Translations under genes and position numbers: made by a program
Notes under the pieces: model-generated
Database searches by the model: none
What the model saw: only the letters and a program-made list of their open reading frames with translations
Told to the model about the DNA's origin: nothing
From: Lentisphaera araneosa HTCC2155
GTDB lineage: Bacteria > Verrucomicrobiota > Lentisphaeria > Lentisphaerales > Lentisphaeraceae
Reading direction: 5' to 3'
DNA length: 64,000 bases
Assembly: GCF_000170755.1 (NCBI RefSeq)
Contig: NZ_ABCK01000004.1
Span: 248,001 to 312,000, forward strand
Shown here: one piece after another, positions 5,894 to 57,595 of the stretch
Numbering within the stretch: the stretch's first letter is position 1
Layout: the number at the start of each line of letters is the position of its first letter

Positions 5894-5984
5894 ATTAAAA
5901 ATTGAGAATTAACAATTAAAAATTGTTTTTCCCACACCTGCCAAAAGATTTCTAGTAAACTAATTTTTTAACTCATTTCTATAT

Positions 5985-6425
5985 AAAATGAGTCCTGAAG
6001 GGACGCCACAATAATAGCCTAGGGTCGTGACCCTAGGAATACCATATACAATAAAATGAGTCCTGAAGGGACGCCACAATAATAGCCTGGGGTCGTGACC
6101 CTAGGAATACCATATACAATAAAATGAGTCCTGAAGGGACGCCACAATAATAGCCTAGGGTCGTGACCCTAGGAATACCATATACAATAAAATGAGTCCT
6201 GAAGGGACGCCACAATAATAGCCTAGGGTCGTGACCCTAGGAATACCATATACAATAAAATGAGTCCTGAAGGGACGCCACAACAATAGCCTAGGGTCGT
6301 GACCCTAGGAATACCATATACAATAAAATGAGTCCTGAAGAGACGCCACAATAATAGCCTAGGGTCGTGACCCTAGGAATACCATAAACAATAAATCGGA
6401 ACCCTGTAGGGCTGACACATAATTA
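5985..6425. repeat. Tandem array of six 68-bp units, each with two hairpins, plus a degenerate seventh
   Basis: Units begin with AAAATGAG at 5985, 6053, 6121, 6189, 6257 and 6325, an exact 68-base period. A diverged seventh unit starts at 6393. Each unit contains a small hairpin GTCC-TGAA-GGAC-like element and a strong palindrome with arms CCTAGGGTC and GACCCTAGG separated by GT. Copies differ by only a few bases: one G for A at the palindrome in copy 2, ACAAC for ACAAT in copy 5, GAAGAGAC for GAAGGGAC in copy 6. There are no unique spacers, so it is not a CRISPR array. It fills most of the gap between two convergent genes. The reverse-strand open frame through it is a by-product of the repeat. 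Confidence 0.93.
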
Positions 6426-6522
6426 ACAAAAGATAATTAAAAATTGTTTTGCTCGACGGACCCAAGATTATTGACTCATAGTTCAAGATTACACATCACT
6501 AAGTGAGCGACCCGAAGGCCTA

Positions 6523-38102: not shown

Positions 38103-38402
38103 GGGAAATATTCTCTGGTCATAATATCCCTCGAAGAGGGATCAATGTGATTAACTTGGGGTGAACGTAGTGAACCCCGAGGTGCAATACGTACATATAT
38201 TCGTCCTCGGAGAGGGCGTACTGGAGGGATGTTGGCCGTCTTCGACGACCGGATTTATTTATAACCATGTTCTCCGGGCTAAACCCCGGAGCTAATGACA
38301 TTTGCCGCCTCCGGCGACATGTATGAATTTTAATTCAATCAATCCCTCAAAGAGGGATCAACGTCATTAACTTGGGGTGAACGTAGTGAACCCCGAGATC
38401 AT
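38082..38402 (+). repeat. Composite hairpin repeat array, copy block A (S1-S2-S3-S4-S5-S6-S2)
   Basis: Successive hairpins can be read: S1/S2 TCCCTC-GAA-GAGGGA, then CTTGGGGT...ACCCCGAG; S3 GTCCTC-GGA-GAGGGC; S4 GGCCGTC-TTC-GACGACC (38234-38250); S5 CTCCGGG-CTAAA-CCCGGAG; S6 GCCG-CCTC-CGGC inside TTTGCCGCCTCCGGCGACAT. A second S2 follows at 38343 with a period of 216 bases. The block fills the gap after the small membrane protein gene and ends abruptly at a prepilin fragment. The same modules in the same order and orientation recur in blocks B-F. Confidence 0.9.
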
Positions 38403-39297: not shown

Positions 39298-39535
39298 CAT
39301 CCGTCCTCGGTGAGGGAGTGCACATATTGGCCGTCTTCGACGACCGGATTTGTTTGTAACCATGTCCTCCGGGTTAACCCCCAAAGCTTATCACATTTGC
39401 CGCCTACGGCGACTTCGATAAGGAAACTGATTAAATCAGTCCCTCGAAGAGGGATAGACGTCATTAGCTTGGGGTGAACAACGTGAACCCCGAGGTGCAA
39501 TACGTCCATATATTCGTCCTCGGAGAGGGCGTACT
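39298..39535 (+). repeat. Composite hairpin repeat array, copy block B (S3-S4-S5-S6-S2-S3)
   Basis: S3 GTCCTC-GGT-GAGGGA at the left, S4 at 39329-39345, a partly eroded S5 (CTCCGGGTTAACCCCC), S6 GCCG-CCTA-CGGC, then S2 with TCCCTC-GAA-GAGGGA and CTTGGGGT...ACCCCGAG, and a second S3 ending GGCGTAC. The connecting sequence ACTTCGATAAGGAAACTGA-TCAGTCCCTC is shared with block C. The 39043-39297 part of this gap holds only the antitoxin promoter region. After 39535 it leads to the truncated sulfatase copy. Confidence 0.9.
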
Positions 39536-39679
39536 CTAGAAAAAATAAAAGAAGCTAAAACGGACATTCATCTGTACTCGGAAATAAAAAATCATCCCTT
39601 CTCATTAAACTTTGGCAAAGGCCTCAGTATAGAGAAGGTAACTAACAATATTCAAGATAAAAACAAGGACATCTACTTC

Positions 39680-40006
39680 ATGCCTTTATACATCAGCAAA
39701 AAGAGAAATCTCGTATTGATGATTTTTGGACTAATCAGTACTACATTTATGATCCAAACTGTCTCGGCAAAGTCCTCAAAACCAAATTTTGTCTTCTTTC
39801 TGGTGGATGATTTTGGCTGGGGTTCGATAAGTGCTATGGGCCATGAATTTGTCGAGACTCCCAATATCGATAAACTGGCAAAAAGCGGAAAAGCAAAAAC
39901 GCGTATTCCTGTCAAATATGGTGAGACGATTTCCTGGTTTACGATCCCTTCATCGGGCCTGCTTAAAATTGTTACCAATGGTGAGACACTCTCTAACAAA
40001 GAATAA
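39680..40006 (+). pseudogene. Truncated duplicate of the 45244-46695 sulfatase (first ~75 residues)
   Basis: The signal peptide and first core strand (SKPNFVFFLVDDFGWGS, ETPNIDKLAKSG) are almost identical to the complete sulfatase at 45244, and so is about 100 bases of upstream DNA (39585 against 45149). After KSGK the homology ends, before the formylglycine motif. The frame continues as an unrelated 36-residue tail (KTRIPVKYGETISWFTIPSS and onward) to a TAA. No sulfatase activity is possible. A signal-peptide-bearing short product could still be made. The piece from 40040 to 40138 reads like the C-terminal end of another lost gene (HGDVYFRDVFNAQVSKL). Confidence 0.85.
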
Positions 40007-45103: not shown

Positions 45104-45243
45104 ATAAATACAACGCTTATGTAAGGGTCTGTATATCTTAACAAACAAATAAAAATCATCCCTTCTCATTAAGCTTTAGCAAAGGCCTCAGTATAGAGAA
45201 GGGAACTAACAATATTCAAGATAAAAACAAGGACATCTACTTC

Positions 45244-46695
45244 ATGCCTTTATACATCAGCAAAAAGAGAAATCTCGTATTGATGATTTTTGGACTAATC
45301 AGTACTACATTTATGATCCAAACTGTCTCGGCAAAGTCCTCAAAACCAAATTTTGTCTTCTTTCTGGTGGATGATTTTGGCTGGGCTTCGATAAGTGCAA
45401 TGGGTGATGAATTTCTCGAGACTCCCAATATTGATAAACTGGCAGGAAGCGGTATGCAATTCACTAACGGTTATGCGGCATGCACCGTCTGCTCACCCAG
45501 TCGTGCGGCAATCCTCACCGGAGCCTATCCGGGACGTACCAAGCTTACCGACTGGATTCCCGGACATAATAAATTTATCAGAAAACTTCAAATTCCAGAT
45601 TGGCAGAAGTATATGGATCACGAGCGTATCCTGCTTCCGGAGGCCCTTAAGGAAAATGGTTACCGTACCAACTTTATCGGCAAGTGGCACCTTATGCCGA
45701 AGAAATATAGGGCGGGCGACATAAAACACTATCCAGAAGACCATGGTTTTGATATAAACATTGGTGGTAGGGAATGGGGACAACCTAAAGGCAAAGGTAA
45801 ATATTTTCATCCATTTGATATGCCAAATGTAAGCAGTAAAGAAGGTGATTACCTAACCGATCGTCTTACGGACTACGCGGTAGATATCATTGAAAAAAAT
45901 AAGGAGAACCCCTTCTTAATTTATTTTTCCTACTACACAGTCCATACACCCATTCAAGGCAAAGCGGAATTGGTGAAGAAGTATACAGAGAAGAAAAATG
46001 GCAATGTAAACAAATTCAAAGAATACAGTCCTTCTTATGCAGCGATGGTACAAAGCCTGGATGAAAGTGTTGGCCGAGTCCTTGCCAAGCTTGAGGAAAC
46101 CGGTTTACGGGATAACACCTATATATTTTTCACCGGAGACAATGGTTCGGGTAATAACTTATACACCGGAGGACTAAAAGGGGCAAAAGCCAAAGCACAT
46201 GAGGGTGGTACACGCGAAGTGTATCTAATATCAGGTCCTGGAATCAAAGCAGGAGGAAAATCAGATGTACCGGTAATAGGCACTGATTTTTATCCCACCA
46301 TGCTTGATCTTGCAGGTCTTCCACTCAAACCCGATCAACATCAGGATGGAGTCAGCTTCAAAGCTATCTTAACCGAAGGCGGTTCAATCAAAGAGCGTTC
46401 GCTCTTCTGGCATTATCCACATTACCATAAGACTAAGCCTTATGGTGCAATCCGTAGCGGTGATTGGAAGCTTATTGAATTCTTTGAAGATGGTAAACTT
46501 GAACTCTACAATCTTAAAGAAGACCAGGGAGAACAGAATAATCTGGCTGAATCACATCCGGAAAAAGCGACGGCTTTACTAAAAGAGATGCAGCAATGGC
46601 GTAAAGATGTTGGTGCACAGGAGATGACACTAAATCCCGAGTACACCCCTACTGCCAAACCAATGCTCAAAAACGGCAAAAAGAAAAAGAAATAA
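45244..46695 (+). CDS. Secreted sulfatase (source of the truncated copy at 39680)
   Basis: This 483-residue protein has a signal peptide ending TVSAKSSK. Core: FFLVDDFGWAS, formylglycine motif C-S-P-S-R at Cys83 followed by AAILTGAYPGR, GKWHLMPK, YYTVHTPIQGK, FTGDNGSGNN, HEGGTREVYLISGPG. The region from about 45149 through residue 70 is repeated with few changes at 39585-39891. The tail ends in GKKKKK. It is nine bases upstream of the next sulfatase, so co-transcribed. Sulfate position specificity cannot be predicted from sequence alone. Confidence 0.92.
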   Translation: MPLYISKKRNLVLMIFGLISTTFMIQTVSAKSSKPNFVFFLVDDFGWASISAMGDEFLETPNIDKLAGSGMQFTNGYAACTVCSPSRAAILTGAYPGRTKLTDWIPGHNKFIRKLQIPDWQKYMDHERILLPEALKENGYRTNFIGKWHLMPKKYRAGDIKHYPEDHGFDINIGGREWGQPKGKGKYFHPFDMPNVSSKEGDYLTDRLTDYAVDIIEKNKENPFLIYFSYYTVHTPIQGKAELVKKYTEKKNGNVNKFKEYSPSYAAMVQSLDESVGRVLAKLEETGLRDNTYIFFTGDNGSGNNLYTGGLKGAKAKAHEGGTREVYLISGPGIKAGGKSDVPVIGTDFYPTMLDLAGLPLKPDQHQDGVSFKAILTEGGSIKERSLFWHYPHYHKTKPYGAIRSGDWKLIEFFEDGKLELYNLKEDQGEQNNLAESHPEKATALLKEMQQWRKDVGAQEMTLNPEYTPTAKPMLKNGKKKKK

Positions 46696-52371: not shown

Positions 52372-53178
52372 GTGAAAAAACATTTATTCATTTTATTCTC
52401 ATTACTCATGCTGAACACGGTGATTGCCGAGCAAGTAAAACCGATAAAAGTCTTAATGATCACTGGCGGTGGCTGGCATGATTACAAAACCCAAGCGCCT
52501 TTACTAAAAAAGACTATTGAATCACAAATAAATGCTACCATAGATATTAAGTGGACCAGTACAAAAGAGCACCCTGTCAAACCAAAAACTGAGGTCCTAC
52601 CTCAGATTATGGCGACGGATTTCGCCAAGGGCTACGATGTGGTATTTCACAATCATTGCCATGTGGGATTTAAAGATGACATCAAAATTAACGAAGTCAT
52701 TGATAATCATATCAAAAATAAAGTTGGCGTGGTTTTAACCCATGGAAGTTTTCATAGCTTTAGAGACACCAATGCCTGGGATCGTCTCTGTGGTGTCCAT
52801 TGCAAAACACACGGGCGCAAAGCTCCTATTGACGTTGAATTCATCAATAAAACACACCCCGTATCAAAAGCGATAAATCTTGATCGTTTTAAAACAAGTG
52901 AGGGCGAATTATATCGTACGAAATTAAATGAAGGTACAGTGGCCATAGCCAAGGGAACAACTTTAGCTGGTAATAAAAGCGATCATACCCAAATTTGTGT
53001 CTTTGCACACGAGCTTGATGGAATTCGCGTTTTTGGAACCACTCTTGGGCATCACAATAGCACTATGGAAATGCCTGAGTATAAAAAAATGATCATCAAT
53101 GCAATCCTTTGGACATCTGGAAAGATTGATAAAGATGGCAAGATCCAAGACGGTTACCTTAAACCTAGAGAAAAATAA
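52372..53178 (+). CDS. ThuA-like secreted protein
   Basis: This 268-residue protein uses a GTG start at 52372 preceded by AAGGAAA. A signal peptide covers residues 1-19. The body has the ThuA class I glutamine amidotransferase-like fold: VLMITGGGWHDYKTQ, TDFAKGYDVVFHNHCH, GVVLTHGSFHSF, HPVSKAINLDRFKTSEGELY, RVFGTTLGHHNSTM and YKKMIINAILW. ThuA proteins are linked to trehalose or other disaccharide use in Rhizobium and, in PVC bacteria, often sit next to propeller/cytochrome c proteins and oxidoreductases. It closes the plus-strand operon, its stop being two bases before repeat block C, whose hairpins may end transcription. Enzymatic role is unknown. Confidence 0.87.
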   Translation: MKKHLFILFSLLMLNTVIAEQVKPIKVLMITGGGWHDYKTQAPLLKKTIESQINATIDIKWTSTKEHPVKPKTEVLPQIMATDFAKGYDVVFHNHCHVGFKDDIKINEVIDNHIKNKVGVVLTHGSFHSFRDTNAWDRLCGVHCKTHGRKAPIDVEFINKTHPVSKAINLDRFKTSEGELYRTKLNEGTVAIAKGTTLAGNKSDHTQICVFAHELDGIRVFGTTLGHHNSTMEMPEYKKMIINAILWTSGKIDKDGKIQDGYLKPREK

Positions 53179-53180
53179 TA

Positions 53181-53766
53181 GCCGTCTTCGACGACCGGAG
53201 AGGTTTGTATATGTTTCTCCGGGCTAAACCCCTGAGCTAATGACATTTGCCACCTTCGGCGACTTCGATAAGGAAACTGACTCAATCAGTCCCTCGAAGA
53301 GGGATAAACATGGGGAATATCCTCTGATCATGATATCCCTCGAAGAGGGATAGACGTCATTAGCTTGGGGTGAACGTAGTGAACCCCGAGATCATAAAGC
53401 ATCAAAAACAATTCGTCCTCGGAGAGGGCGTACACATTGGCCGTCTTCGACGACCGAAGATTTTATTACTCCACCCTCCGGGTTAAACCCCGGAGCTAAT
53501 CACATTTGCCGCCTCCGGCGACATTAAATAAAACGTTGAATCAAAAAATCCCTCGGAGAGGGATAGACGTCATTAACTTGGGGTGAACAACGTGAACCCC
53601 GAGATCACAAGGCATCAAAAATCATTCGTCCTCAGTGAGGGCGTACATATTCTCACAGATAATATTGGCCGTCTTCGACGACCGATTGCTTTCTGTATCC
53701 ATTTCTCCGGGTTGCGGGCCCTGCCCTCACCCGGAGCTAATGACATTTGCCGCCTTCGGCGACATT
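53181..53766 (+). repeat. Composite hairpin repeat array, copy block C (two and a half units)
   Basis: S4 copies at 53181, 53439 and 53667 mark about 230-258-base periods. Between them come S5, S6, S1, S2 (CTTGGGGT...ACCCCGAG), and S3 (GTCCTC-GGA-GAGGGC, then GTCCTC-AGT-GAGGGC). The last S5 has a longer loop with a nested GGGC...GCCC helix. The block fills the gap from the ThuA stop to 53766. A short AT-rich stretch then leads to the next, oppositely oriented gene. Open frames through it are artefacts. Confidence 0.92.
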
Positions 53767-54302: not shown

Positions 54303-54703
54303 TTCCCTCGAAAAGGGGTTAATGTGATTAGCTTGGGGTGTAAACCCCGAGATCATAAGGCAGTAAAAATAATTCGTCCTCGGAGAGGGTGTACATATTA
54401 TCACAGACACATTGGCCGTCTTCGACGACCGCATAGGTTATATATGTTTCTCCGGGTTACGGGCAGAGCCCTCACCCGGAGCTAATGACATTTGCCGCCT
54501 CCAGCGACATTAAATAGAAAGTTGAATCAAAAAAACCCTCGGAGAGGGATAAACATGGGAAACATCCTCTGATCATGATATCCCTCGAAGAGGGATAGAC
54601 GTCATTAGCTTGGGGTGAACGTAGTAAACCCCGAGATCATAAGGAAGTAAAAATAATTCGTCCTCGGAGAGGGCGTACATAATAACCAACTTCGACGACT
54701 GAA
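54303..54703 (+). repeat. Composite hairpin repeat array, copy block D
   Basis: The block reads S2 (shortened: CTTGGGGTGTAAACCCCGAG), S3 (GTCCTC-GGA-GAGGGT), S4 at 54414, S5 with a nested GGGC-AGA-GCCC helix, S6 (GCCGCCTCCAGCGAC), S1, S2, S3 and a degenerate S4 (CAACTTCGACGACTG) at 54687. It ends about ten bases before the stop of the prepilin-like gene. Confidence 0.9.
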
Positions 54704-55552: not shown

Positions 55553-55775
55553 ACATTGGCCGTCTTCGACGACCGGATTTGTTTGTAACCATGTCCTCCG
55601 GGCTACGGGCAATGCCCTCACCCGGAGCTTATCACATTTGCCACCTCCAGCGACATTAAATAGAAAGTTGAATCAAAACTTCCCTCGAAGAGGGATAGAC
55701 GTCATTAGCTTGGGGTGAACGTAGTGAACCCCGAGATCATGAGGTCTTAACTGATTCGTCCTCGGAGAGGGCGTA
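55553..55775 (+). repeat. Composite hairpin repeat array, copy block E (S4-S5-S6-S2-S3)
   Basis: S4 at 55558-55574, S5 with a nested GGGC-AAT-GCCC helix, S6 (GCCACCTCCAGCGAC), S2 (TCCCTC-GAA-GAGGGA, CTTGGGGT...ACCCCGAG) and S3 (GTCCTC-GGA-GAGGGCGTAC). S3 ends at the base next to the transposase stop codon. The 55389-55552 stretch before it is AT-rich promoter DNA for the prepilin-like gene with no other feature seen. Confidence 0.92.
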
Positions 55776-56219
55776 CTACTTCAAAAATTCTTTTTTATAA
55801 TCCACTCCAGCACTATCAAATAAAGTGATCAACTCTTCTTTCCATGTCATCTTTTTATGATGATCTTCCTGATTTTTTATATACTCAATTGTTACTGGAA
55901 GTTCATTAAACGATTTACTTATAGCTGCATATTCACTTTGCCAGCCTGGAAATTTTGATATGATATTTTCTGACTTTATCCAAGTTGTTGTAGATGTTTT
56001 TAAGTCTCGAATAAAATCCGCAAGACATAGACTAGTATGAAGATTAATAAGCATATGGATATGATCCTCTATTCCACCTATTCGATATAAATAACATCCC
56101 TTATTCTTACATATCCCCCATATATACTTATAAATATCTTCTCGTATATCTTGCTTTAATAAGGGTAGTCTTTCTTTAACCGAAAAAACTATATGATAAT
56201 AAGATTGTACGTAAGACAT
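55776..56219 (-). CDS. IS200/IS605-type Y1 transposase (REP-associated, RAYT-like)
   Basis: This 147-residue protein has the HUH motif H53-I-H55 (EDHIHMLI) and the single catalytic tyrosine Tyr113 in IEYIKNQEDHH. It also has GWQSEYAAISKS, AFSVS-like in the family, and SYYHIVFSVKERLPLL at the start. This is the Y1 single-strand transposase fold of IS200 TnpA. GGAGG sits six bases before the ATG. Both sides are bordered by composite hairpin repeats, S3 on the left and S4 on the right, with no IS200 ends of its own recognised. This arrangement is that of REP-associated tyrosine transposases, which are thought to move short hairpin repeats. It lacks a TnpB partner. Confidence 0.9.
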   Translation of the reverse strand: MSYVQSYYHIVFSVKERLPLLKQDIREDIYKYIWGICKNKGCYLYRIGGIEDHIHMLINLHTSLCLADFIRDLKTSTTTWIKSENIISKFPGWQSEYAAISKSFNELPVTIEYIKNQEDHHKKMTWKEELITLFDSAGVDYKKEFLK

Positions 56220-56280
56220 GATACCTCCAATAATCCTTTTGGAATCAAGGTATTATTTTGATATGTCTAATGCAATTATT

Positions 56281-56706
56281 TATTGGCCGTCTTCGACGAC
56301 CGGGAAGGTATTTTTATATATTCCTCCGGGCTAAACCCCAGAGCTAATGATATTTACCGCCTCCGGCGACATATAGAGTTTTCTTATTCATTTTATCCCT
56401 CGAAGAGGGATAGACGTCATTAGCTTGGGGTGAACGTAGTGAACCCCGAGATCATAAGGTATCAAAAATCATTCGTCCTCGATGAGGGCGTACATATTAT
56501 CACAGACATATTCGCCGTCTTCGACGACCGGAAATTTTATTACTCCACCCTCCGGGCTAAACCCCAGAGCTAATGACATTTGCCGTCTTCGACGACATGT
56601 ATAAACTTTTGATTCAAAACTTCCCTCGAAGAAAGGTCTGATTTAATTATGCTCAATTCATAGCCTCCCTCAAAGGGGGATAAATATTATTAACTTGGGG
56701 TAAACC
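56281..56706 (+). repeat. Composite hairpin repeat array, copy block F
   Basis: S4 at 56285, S5, S6, S2, S3 (GTCCTC-GAT-GAGGGC), S4 again at 56513, S5, an S4-like hairpin in the S6 place (GCCGTC-TTC-GACGAC), a damaged S2 (TCCCTCGAAGAAAGG) and a half S2 that stops in CTTGGGGTAAAC. The end coincides with the stop of the discoidin gene. The 56220-56280 stretch before it holds only the transposase leader. Confidence 0.9.
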
Positions 56707-57209
56707 TATATTGTAAGTATCCTTTTTTTACTTTTAGAAGGAGTATCACTGTATAACACCACCTCTTTCACCCGGGCAATGTCACCCAGTGTCTTAGTAA
56801 TCATTACACGGAGTTCTTTAACAGTCACTGGAGCTTCAAAAACAACTTCACGCTGGATACTTTTATTCTTGCTTACTGCTGAACCGGGGACCTTCACCCA
56901 CTCTCCACTCTGATTTTTAATTTCTACATGAAAACTATCTATGGCATCCGTCTTTCCGCGACCTGAATACAGTTGAAAACTGCTGACAGAGCTCTTCTGC
57001 TTAAATTCTAAAGCAAGCCAGATTTTGCCATATTCATCTTTGACACCAACCCAACGGGATTTATCTGAGATCACACCATCAATGGCGTTTGATGCTTGGT
57101 ACTCTTTGTAAACTGCAGATGCCCTGGCTCCCACAACTTCAATTTTCTCTTTCGCCAGACCTGTCATCGCAAGTCCAAGGCTCAAAATCATAAATATTTC
57201 TTTTCTCAT
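56706..57209 (-). CDS. Secreted discoidin (F5/8 type C) domain protein
   Basis: This 167-residue protein has a signal peptide (MRKEIFMILSLGLAMTGLAK). The rest is one F5/8 type C domain: ASAVYKEYQASNAIDGVISDKSRWVG, KIWLALEFKQKSSVSSFQLYSGRG, FHVEIKNQSGEWVKVPGS and VTVKELRVMITKTLGDIARVKEVVLY. It closely resembles the N-terminal domain of the GH9-like enzyme at 60597-62924 and is probably an excised copy of that domain. It may bind a glycan without cleaving it. The last codons overlap the end of repeat block F, so the repeat or a deletion has set its C-terminus (KSKKRILTI). A broken tandem copy precedes it. Confidence 0.8.
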   Translation of the reverse strand: MRKEIFMILSLGLAMTGLAKEKIEVVGARASAVYKEYQASNAIDGVISDKSRWVGVKDEYGKIWLALEFKQKSSVSSFQLYSGRGKTDAIDSFHVEIKNQSGEWVKVPGSAVSKNKSIQREVVFEAPVTVKELRVMITKTLGDIARVKEVVLYSDTPSKSKKRILTI

Positions 57210-57244
57210 CGTACGTTACTATGTTGTTTTAGTTCTAAAGCAAG

Positions 57245-57436
57245 TCAGATCTTGCCATTTTCATCTTTGCCGTCAATCCAACGGGATTCATCTGAGATCA
57301 CACCGTCAACGGCATGGGATGTGTGGTACTGTTTGAAAACTGCAGATGCAGTTGTCTCCACAATTTCTATTTTCTGTTCCGCCAGAATTGTCATCGCAAG
57401 CCCAAGCCCCAAACTCATCAGTATTTCTTTTCTCAT
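57245..57436 (-). pseudogene. Broken tandem copy of the discoidin gene
   Basis: The first 63 codons match the 56706-57209 gene (MRKEILMSLGLGLAMTILAE, VFKQYHTSHAVDGVISDESRWIDG, DENGKI), then a TGA replaces the Trp codon of KIWLALE. Reading through gives LALELKQHSNVR and then the start of the next copy. Both copies begin GTACGATGAGAAAAGAAATA, giving a 227-base tandem duplication in which the upstream copy is truncated. Any product would be a signal peptide and half a domain. Confidence 0.82.
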
Positions 57437-57445
57437 CGTACGCTA

Positions 57446-57595
57446 CTATCTGCTTTGGATATACCCGATGGATATTGAGTCGCCTATGATCAATACCTTC
57501 GGCAAATCGCGCTCTTGTTAAGTATCTTCTTTCTGTAATTGGATGCTCTTATGGTCGGGAAAAGTATCTGGAACCGGCCAGGTTACCTCGCTGCC
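57446..57595 (-). pseudogene. Fragment of an SGNH hydrolase gene
   Basis: The minus-strand frame reads GSEVTWPVPDTFPDHKSIQL, QKEDT, a TAA at 57518-57520, QERDLPKVLIIGDSISIGY and IQSR before a TAG. GDSISIGY is SGNH block I, as in the intact gene at 40190-40930, with the usual preceding P-x-V-L-I-I strand. The rest of the gene is absent, being joined to the discoidin duplication at 57446. It overlaps the stop of the downstream SGNH gene by a few bases. Confidence 0.7.

Follow-up and report, generated by a model that had tools for sequence, protein, structure and literature searches.

The transposase gene at positions 55776-56219 of the window (the whole 64,000-nucleotide stretch of DNA that was analysed, part of contig C4 of the 6.02 Mb draft genome G000) lies between two inverted arms of three hairpins each and is best read as a REPtron-like locus of TnpA-Y1 subclass 1.2. 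The locus works like a REPtron, and its protein is a member of this subclass and not a RAYT. We put at roughly three in four the probability that the arms are single-strand substrates of the window TnpA, that gene-less units were dispersed by it at replication forks and that the gene is domesticated. An enzyme class reported without a DNA partner would probably then have one in the form of hairpin repeats.

The tnpA gene and its product

The gene, tnpA, is on the reverse strand and encodes a Y1/HUH transposase of 147 amino acids that matches Pfam Y1_Tnp (E = 2.6e-23). Motifs of subclass 1.2 were found at H53-I-H55, W93-Q94 and Y113-IKNQ-xx-HH, in the strings EDHIHM, GWQS and YIKNQEDHH. In an alignment, the catalytic residues, including H53, H55, Y113, Q117, H120 and H121, were all invariant across 17 relatives. 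The top Foldseek matches of an AlphaFold model of the protein (mean pLDDT 82.6) were IS608 TnpA (E about 3e-9), with ISDra2 also among the closest; the E. coli REP transposase was a lower-ranked structural match. No tnpB was seen at the window locus.

The genome carries one copy of this tnpA and three other subclass 1.2 genes, which are 34-36% identical to it. Twelve further Y1 proteins are encoded on contigs C1, C2, C6, C14, C15, C22, C26, C38 and C44; the eight of them that were read are class-2-like.

Assignment to subclass 1.2

TnpA-Y1 subclass 1.2 is defined by DH[IV]H, WQ and Y---Q--HH and a length of about 148 amino acids (PMC6006769). Judged by its motifs (DHIH, WQ and YIKNQxxHH) and its length (147 amino acids against a median of 148), the window protein belongs to this subclass, with which it also shares low copy number and divergent paralogues within one genome. 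Quentin et al. 2018 described the subclass as lacking REP sequences and as found mostly in Cyanobacteria and Bacteroidetes (PMC6006769). This absence of REP is a described property and not a defining motif. The genes studied here differ from the published members in being framed by repeats and in occurring, besides Bacteroidetes, also in the window's phylum (Lentisphaerota-like) and in Acidobacteria. We found no paper in the open-access literature that gives repeats for subclass 1.2; an earlier description in subscription journals or in ISfinder is possible.

The RAYT label given to the protein in an earlier, sequence-only reading of this DNA does not hold. The protein scored 19 bits against the NCBIfam REP transposase model NF047646, below the cut-off of 80, and has YIKNQ instead of Y---NP; its position in the tree also speaks against a RAYT proper. 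It passed the NCBIfam IS200 model NF033573 (58.9 bits, cut-off 55). In a tree with named references, separate clades were made up of the 14 IS200 rows (100/100) and of the class-2 proteins (100/99), and the window protein fell outside both the IS200 and the class-2/RAYT clades. The comparison with RAYT and IS200 clades that the sequence-only reading had proposed thus places the transposase outside IS200. Subclass 1.2 formed a grade around the IS200 clade, the stem of which is long, with the rooting unsettled.

The system resembles REPtrons of class-2 RAYTs (E. coli rayT and its relatives) in several respects: a single-copy, domesticated Y1 gene is framed by hairpin repeats, gene-less copies are dispersed, repeat families are specific to single genes, and inverted pairs occur. 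The tetranucleotide at the 5′ foot may be a further parallel (GT[AG]G, as in GTAG, in RAYT systems, xTAG-like in many subclass 1.2 arms). It differs from them in its class 1-like protein, with Y---Q--HH and not Y---NP, which is outside the RAYT clade, and in its arms, which have three hairpins with GNA triloops, often with an inner hairpin in the large one, and are about 90-105 bases long as opposed to 20-40. With the IS200/IS605 family (IS608, ISDra2, IS200) it shares the HUH/Y1 fold, the catalytic residues, subterminal hairpins and a strand specificity tied to replication. Unlike members of that family, it is not multi-copy, shows no tnpB at the locus, has arms inverted relative to each other and is outside the IS200 clade.

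Two three-hairpin arms around the gene

As the sequence-only reading had claimed, the gene sits between modules S3 and S4 of the repeat. S3, ATTCGTCCTCGGAGAGGGCGTAC (55754-55776), shares its final base with the tnpA stop codon, and S4, TTGGCCGTCTTCGACGACCG, begins at 56283, 63 bp from the ATG at 56219. The same reading saw no IS200-type ends belonging to the gene. On this point our result is different: S4-S5-S6 and S3-S2-S1 are placed as ends would be and form two inverted three-hairpin arms.

The gene-upstream arm (56280-56377) consists of S4, the hairpin beside the gene (56283-56302), the large hairpin S5 (56324-56344) and the outer hairpin S6 (56345-56372). The gene-downstream arm (55676-55776) consists of S3, the large hairpin S2 (55701-55740), which has TTAGC at its foot, and the outer hairpin S1 (55681-55696). 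All of these, like the gene-less copies below, were assigned to the reverse strand. The two arms share one design (small, large, small hairpin) in opposite orientation, although their alignment as inverted copies is weak (score 25-34). GTCATTAGC or its complement adjoins the large hairpin in both arm types. S5 occurs in two forms, a short one and a long one with a second hairpin inserted.

For the S1-S2-S3 arm, 7 of the 24 predicted base pairs showed compensatory double changes among 13 copies. For the S4-S5-S6 arm, no double compensatory change was seen, the copies being too alike to be informative, and its folding as DNA was no better than that of shuffles.

Along the direction of the gene, the order is S3'S2'S1' - S6'S5'S4' - tnpA - S3'S2'S1' - S6'S5'S4'. 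To the left of the downstream arm lies a gene-less S4-S5-S6 arm with the long S5 form and its inner hairpin (55556-55656). On the right, a gene-less unit (56396-56598) comprises S1-S2-S3 (56396-56493), 17 bases and S4-S5-S6 (56511-56598), and the chain ends with a degenerate S1/S2 remnant of repeat family D3 (56666-56708). Elsewhere in the window there are two gene-less chains, one of S1-S2-S3 / S4-S5-S6 / S1-S2-S3 (54303-54678) and one of alternating S4-S5-S6 and S1-S2-S3 arms (53177-53765).

S3 and S4 mark the inner limits of their arms, and gene-less units join S3 to S4. The spacing was 3 (53433/53437), 10 (38221/38232), 17 (54394/54412), 17 (56493/56511) and 18 (53646/53665) bases, in agreement with the earlier claim of direct joining or joining by about 17 bases. 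Isolated copies were found in both orders, S1-S2-S3, 10 bases, S4-S5-S6 at 38127-38320 and S4-S5-S6 followed by S1-S2-S3 at 39327-39534, so that the limits of the mobile unit are ambiguous.

The same layout around related genes

In a genome of the same genus, G002, a homologue with 51% identity to the window TnpA (locus L038) lies between the same two modules in identical order, with complete units on both sides, in different repeat DNA. For a wider comparison, the two 300-base flanks of the gene were compared at loci of relatives in Bacteroidetes, Acidobacteria and the window's phylum, and a local score of 36 or more was taken as a repeat. Inverted and/or direct repeats were found within 300 bp of the gene at 74 of 89 related loci, against 0 of 73 pairs of control regions 1.1-1.4 kb away; at the other 15 loci, no flanking repeat was detected. 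There were also none at 17 IS200 loci, a control that merely shows the absence of such flanks there, IS200 ends being of another type. In a non-redundant set (proteins less than 60% identical), 56 of 66 loci had flank repeats as opposed to 0 of 54 controls (Fisher, 3e-24). The layout of a gene within hairpin repeats recurs around relatives in at least three bacterial phyla. The same module order at L038 in different DNA, together with the 74/89 against 0/73 loci with flank repeats, shows that the placement of the gene between arms is not due to chance.

The hairpins around these genes have a polarity. Near the genes, 97 GNA-triloop hairpins with a stem of 5 or more lay upstream and 89 downstream, as compared with 4 and 11 in the far regions. 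Those on one side of the gene were on the gene-ward strand, and those on the other side were on its complement. In sign tests per non-redundant locus, the counts were 32 against 6 (P = 2e-5) and 28 against 9 (P = 0.003). The 5′ foot of the large hairpin was AGC in 29 of 57 arms, as against 5 of 57 for AGC at the mirror-image foot (P = 1e-6). The arm foot is typically xTAG|CC, in some cases exactly GTAG, and is TTAG|C in the window arms. A scan for the xTAG foot over all hairpins was noisy (34/170 against 7/170) and became clear once it was limited to hairpins inside inverted blocks.

One repeat family for each gene

The flanks of the four subclass 1.2 genes in G000 matched themselves at scores of 147-243 and one another only at 22-35. 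The flank of one of them, L002, matched that of its counterpart in G002 at a score of 239; this sharing suggests that arm sets travel with their gene. In another genome of the genus, G001, one degenerate gene-less unit of the window repeat family was found (L066, 1480-1730) with no close transposase gene. This unit is most simply a relic. The sequence-only reading had counted genomes with many repeats and no related transposase against its proposal; G001 has the repeat without a close gene, but as one degenerate unit only.

Gene-less copies, dispersal and strand

Of the 23 matches of the window repeat family in its own genome, 17 are on C4, where they share one strand, so that the copies are mostly a single local same-strand cluster. 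Copies on C4/C30 and on C6/C7 have the same strand and opposite GC skew, a comparison confounded by C6/C7 being a distinct sub-family. In G001, all 9 copies of that genome's own family surround its gene, and the L038 unit in G002 has two copies only, both at the gene. Wide dispersal of arms is thus seen in other genera and not in the window's genus. No filled site with its empty counterpart was seen.

The clearest case is the complete 5.73 Mb chromosome of G011, which has 176 copies of one arm; the reversed-pattern control gave 0. Its GC skew is positive at 2.3-4.9 Mb and negative both below 2.1 Mb and above 5.2 Mb. Among the 100 copies listed of the 176, 54 were plus and 6 minus in the positive-skew half, while 1 was plus and 39 were minus in the rest (P = 3e-20; P = 1e-15 after neighbouring copies were merged). 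The replication half therefore fits the orientation in 93 of the 100 listed copies. The direction of transcription fits less well and was rejected as the cause: 42 of 62 neighbouring genes were opposite to the arm copy, as judged from crude gene calls around 40 copies picked with the majority orientation. Spread by way of single-stranded DNA at replication forks would be expected to leave such a pattern.

Other arrangements were also seen in G011. About 850 bp of a simple array of CGGAGCAGA/CGGAGCGGA units lies directly upstream of an arm and gene (L041, 520-1370). At L180, L189, L193 and L197, dispersed arms are parts of larger composite units, the inverted ends of which, near GTAATCGGTCAGTGATTGATA, are imperfect; some of these units adjoin arms of a second family.

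Two Acidobacteria had 16 and 18 dispersed copies. At five places, the copies form gene-less inverted pairs at a distance of 121-127 bp, each pair folding into a single branched hairpin much as REPINs do. These REPIN-like pairs, with long terminal arms around GGCTCCGTTAGGAGCC...ATGTCTGTAGC, were seen at L243-L247 and L250 in G165 and G166.

Alternative explanations

The locus might be an ordinary autonomous IS, with S6-S5-S4 as its left end, S3-S2-S1 as its right end and the gene-less units as MITEs formed by internal deletion. In its favour are the precise flanking of the gene by the arms, the 3-18 bases that join the arms where the gene is absent, and the passed IS200 model. We nevertheless consider it unlikely, since each repeat family has one gene copy and the paralogues, at 34-36% identity, have unrelated repeats, while the IS200 elements of relatives are multi-copy (10-12 matches in G097 and G068). 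Moreover, the ends of IS200/IS605 elements are not inverted copies of each other, and such flanks were absent from all the IS200 controls. Copy number and arm polarity led us to drop an autonomous IS as the best reading.

Alternatively, the hairpins could be RNA control elements of tnpA (terminators, mRNA stabilisers or translation regulators) and not DNA substrates. REP hairpins have known functions at the RNA level, S3 reaches up to the stop codon, and the hairpins lie in intergenic DNA. A role of this kind is quite improbable here: copies occur far from any tnpA, their orientation in G011 fits the replication half better than the neighbouring genes, and the arm hairpins change polarity from one side of the gene to the other. 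A search of the repeats against Rfam gave no match, and a known RNA family was rejected on this ground. The repeats might instead have spread by local tandem duplication, by recombination or through another, class-2-like Y1 protein, with tnpA as a passenger. The clustering of the C4 copies on one strand and the 12 other Y1 proteins of the genome would suit such a course, yet another species, the repeat DNA of which is different, keeps the layout, as do most relatives, and repeat sets track their own gene, which is unexpected of a passenger. We regard this as very improbable.

Proposed mechanism and significance

The REPtron-like reading would have the following elements. A single-copy HUH/tyrosine transposase gene would be framed by two inverted arms, in each of which the large hairpin, bearing an xTAG-like 5′ foot, stands between an outer hairpin and one that touches the gene; the gene-less copies of the arms would be the cognate repeat family in the host. 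In the steps that we infer, from binding and cleavage to the direction of transfer, an arm would fold once single-stranded, mainly at the replication fork, and a TnpA dimer would bind its hairpins. The foot sequence would direct the cut, and Tyr113 would cleave and rejoin the strand. Gene-less arm units would be moved or copied to near or distant single-stranded sites, and the gene would remain single-copy. In REP and IS200/IS605 systems, a tetranucleotide at the hairpin foot guides cleavage (PMC8266576); by analogy, the foot may have the same guide role in subclass 1.2 arms.

The sequence-only reading had proposed the transposase as the enzyme that spread the repeat. The architecture conserved across genomes, the gene-specific families and the orientation by replication half in G011 make it a good candidate for the repeat-handling enzyme, and the window enzyme may be the spreader of these particular copies. 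We lean towards regarding subclass 1.2 Y1 proteins as a third kind of REPtron beside class-2 RAYTs and IS200/IS605, with three-hairpin arms, a presence in at least three phyla, dispersal of gene-less units at forks and one family per gene.

The new point is a recognisable, probable DNA partner for a subclass that had been described without REP repeats or IS-type ends; such a partner would open the group to in vitro tests. It would also explain a large class of hairpin repeats found between genes in environmental phyla, and the subclass would be an intermediate form, with mobile IS200 elements on one side and domesticated RAYTs on the other. The orientation pattern in G011 would then be a genome-scale record of replication-linked single-strand spread.

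Other repeats in the window

A tandem 227-bp duplication (82%) at 56998-57451 adjoins the repeat chain and lies in the 5′ part of a gene for an F5/8 type C domain protein. A 68-bp unit is repeated six times in tandem at 5915-6458, with inner copies 98-99% identical. A 300-bp direct repeat (39587-39886 and 45151-45450, 96% identical) lies in apparent sulfatase-type genes.
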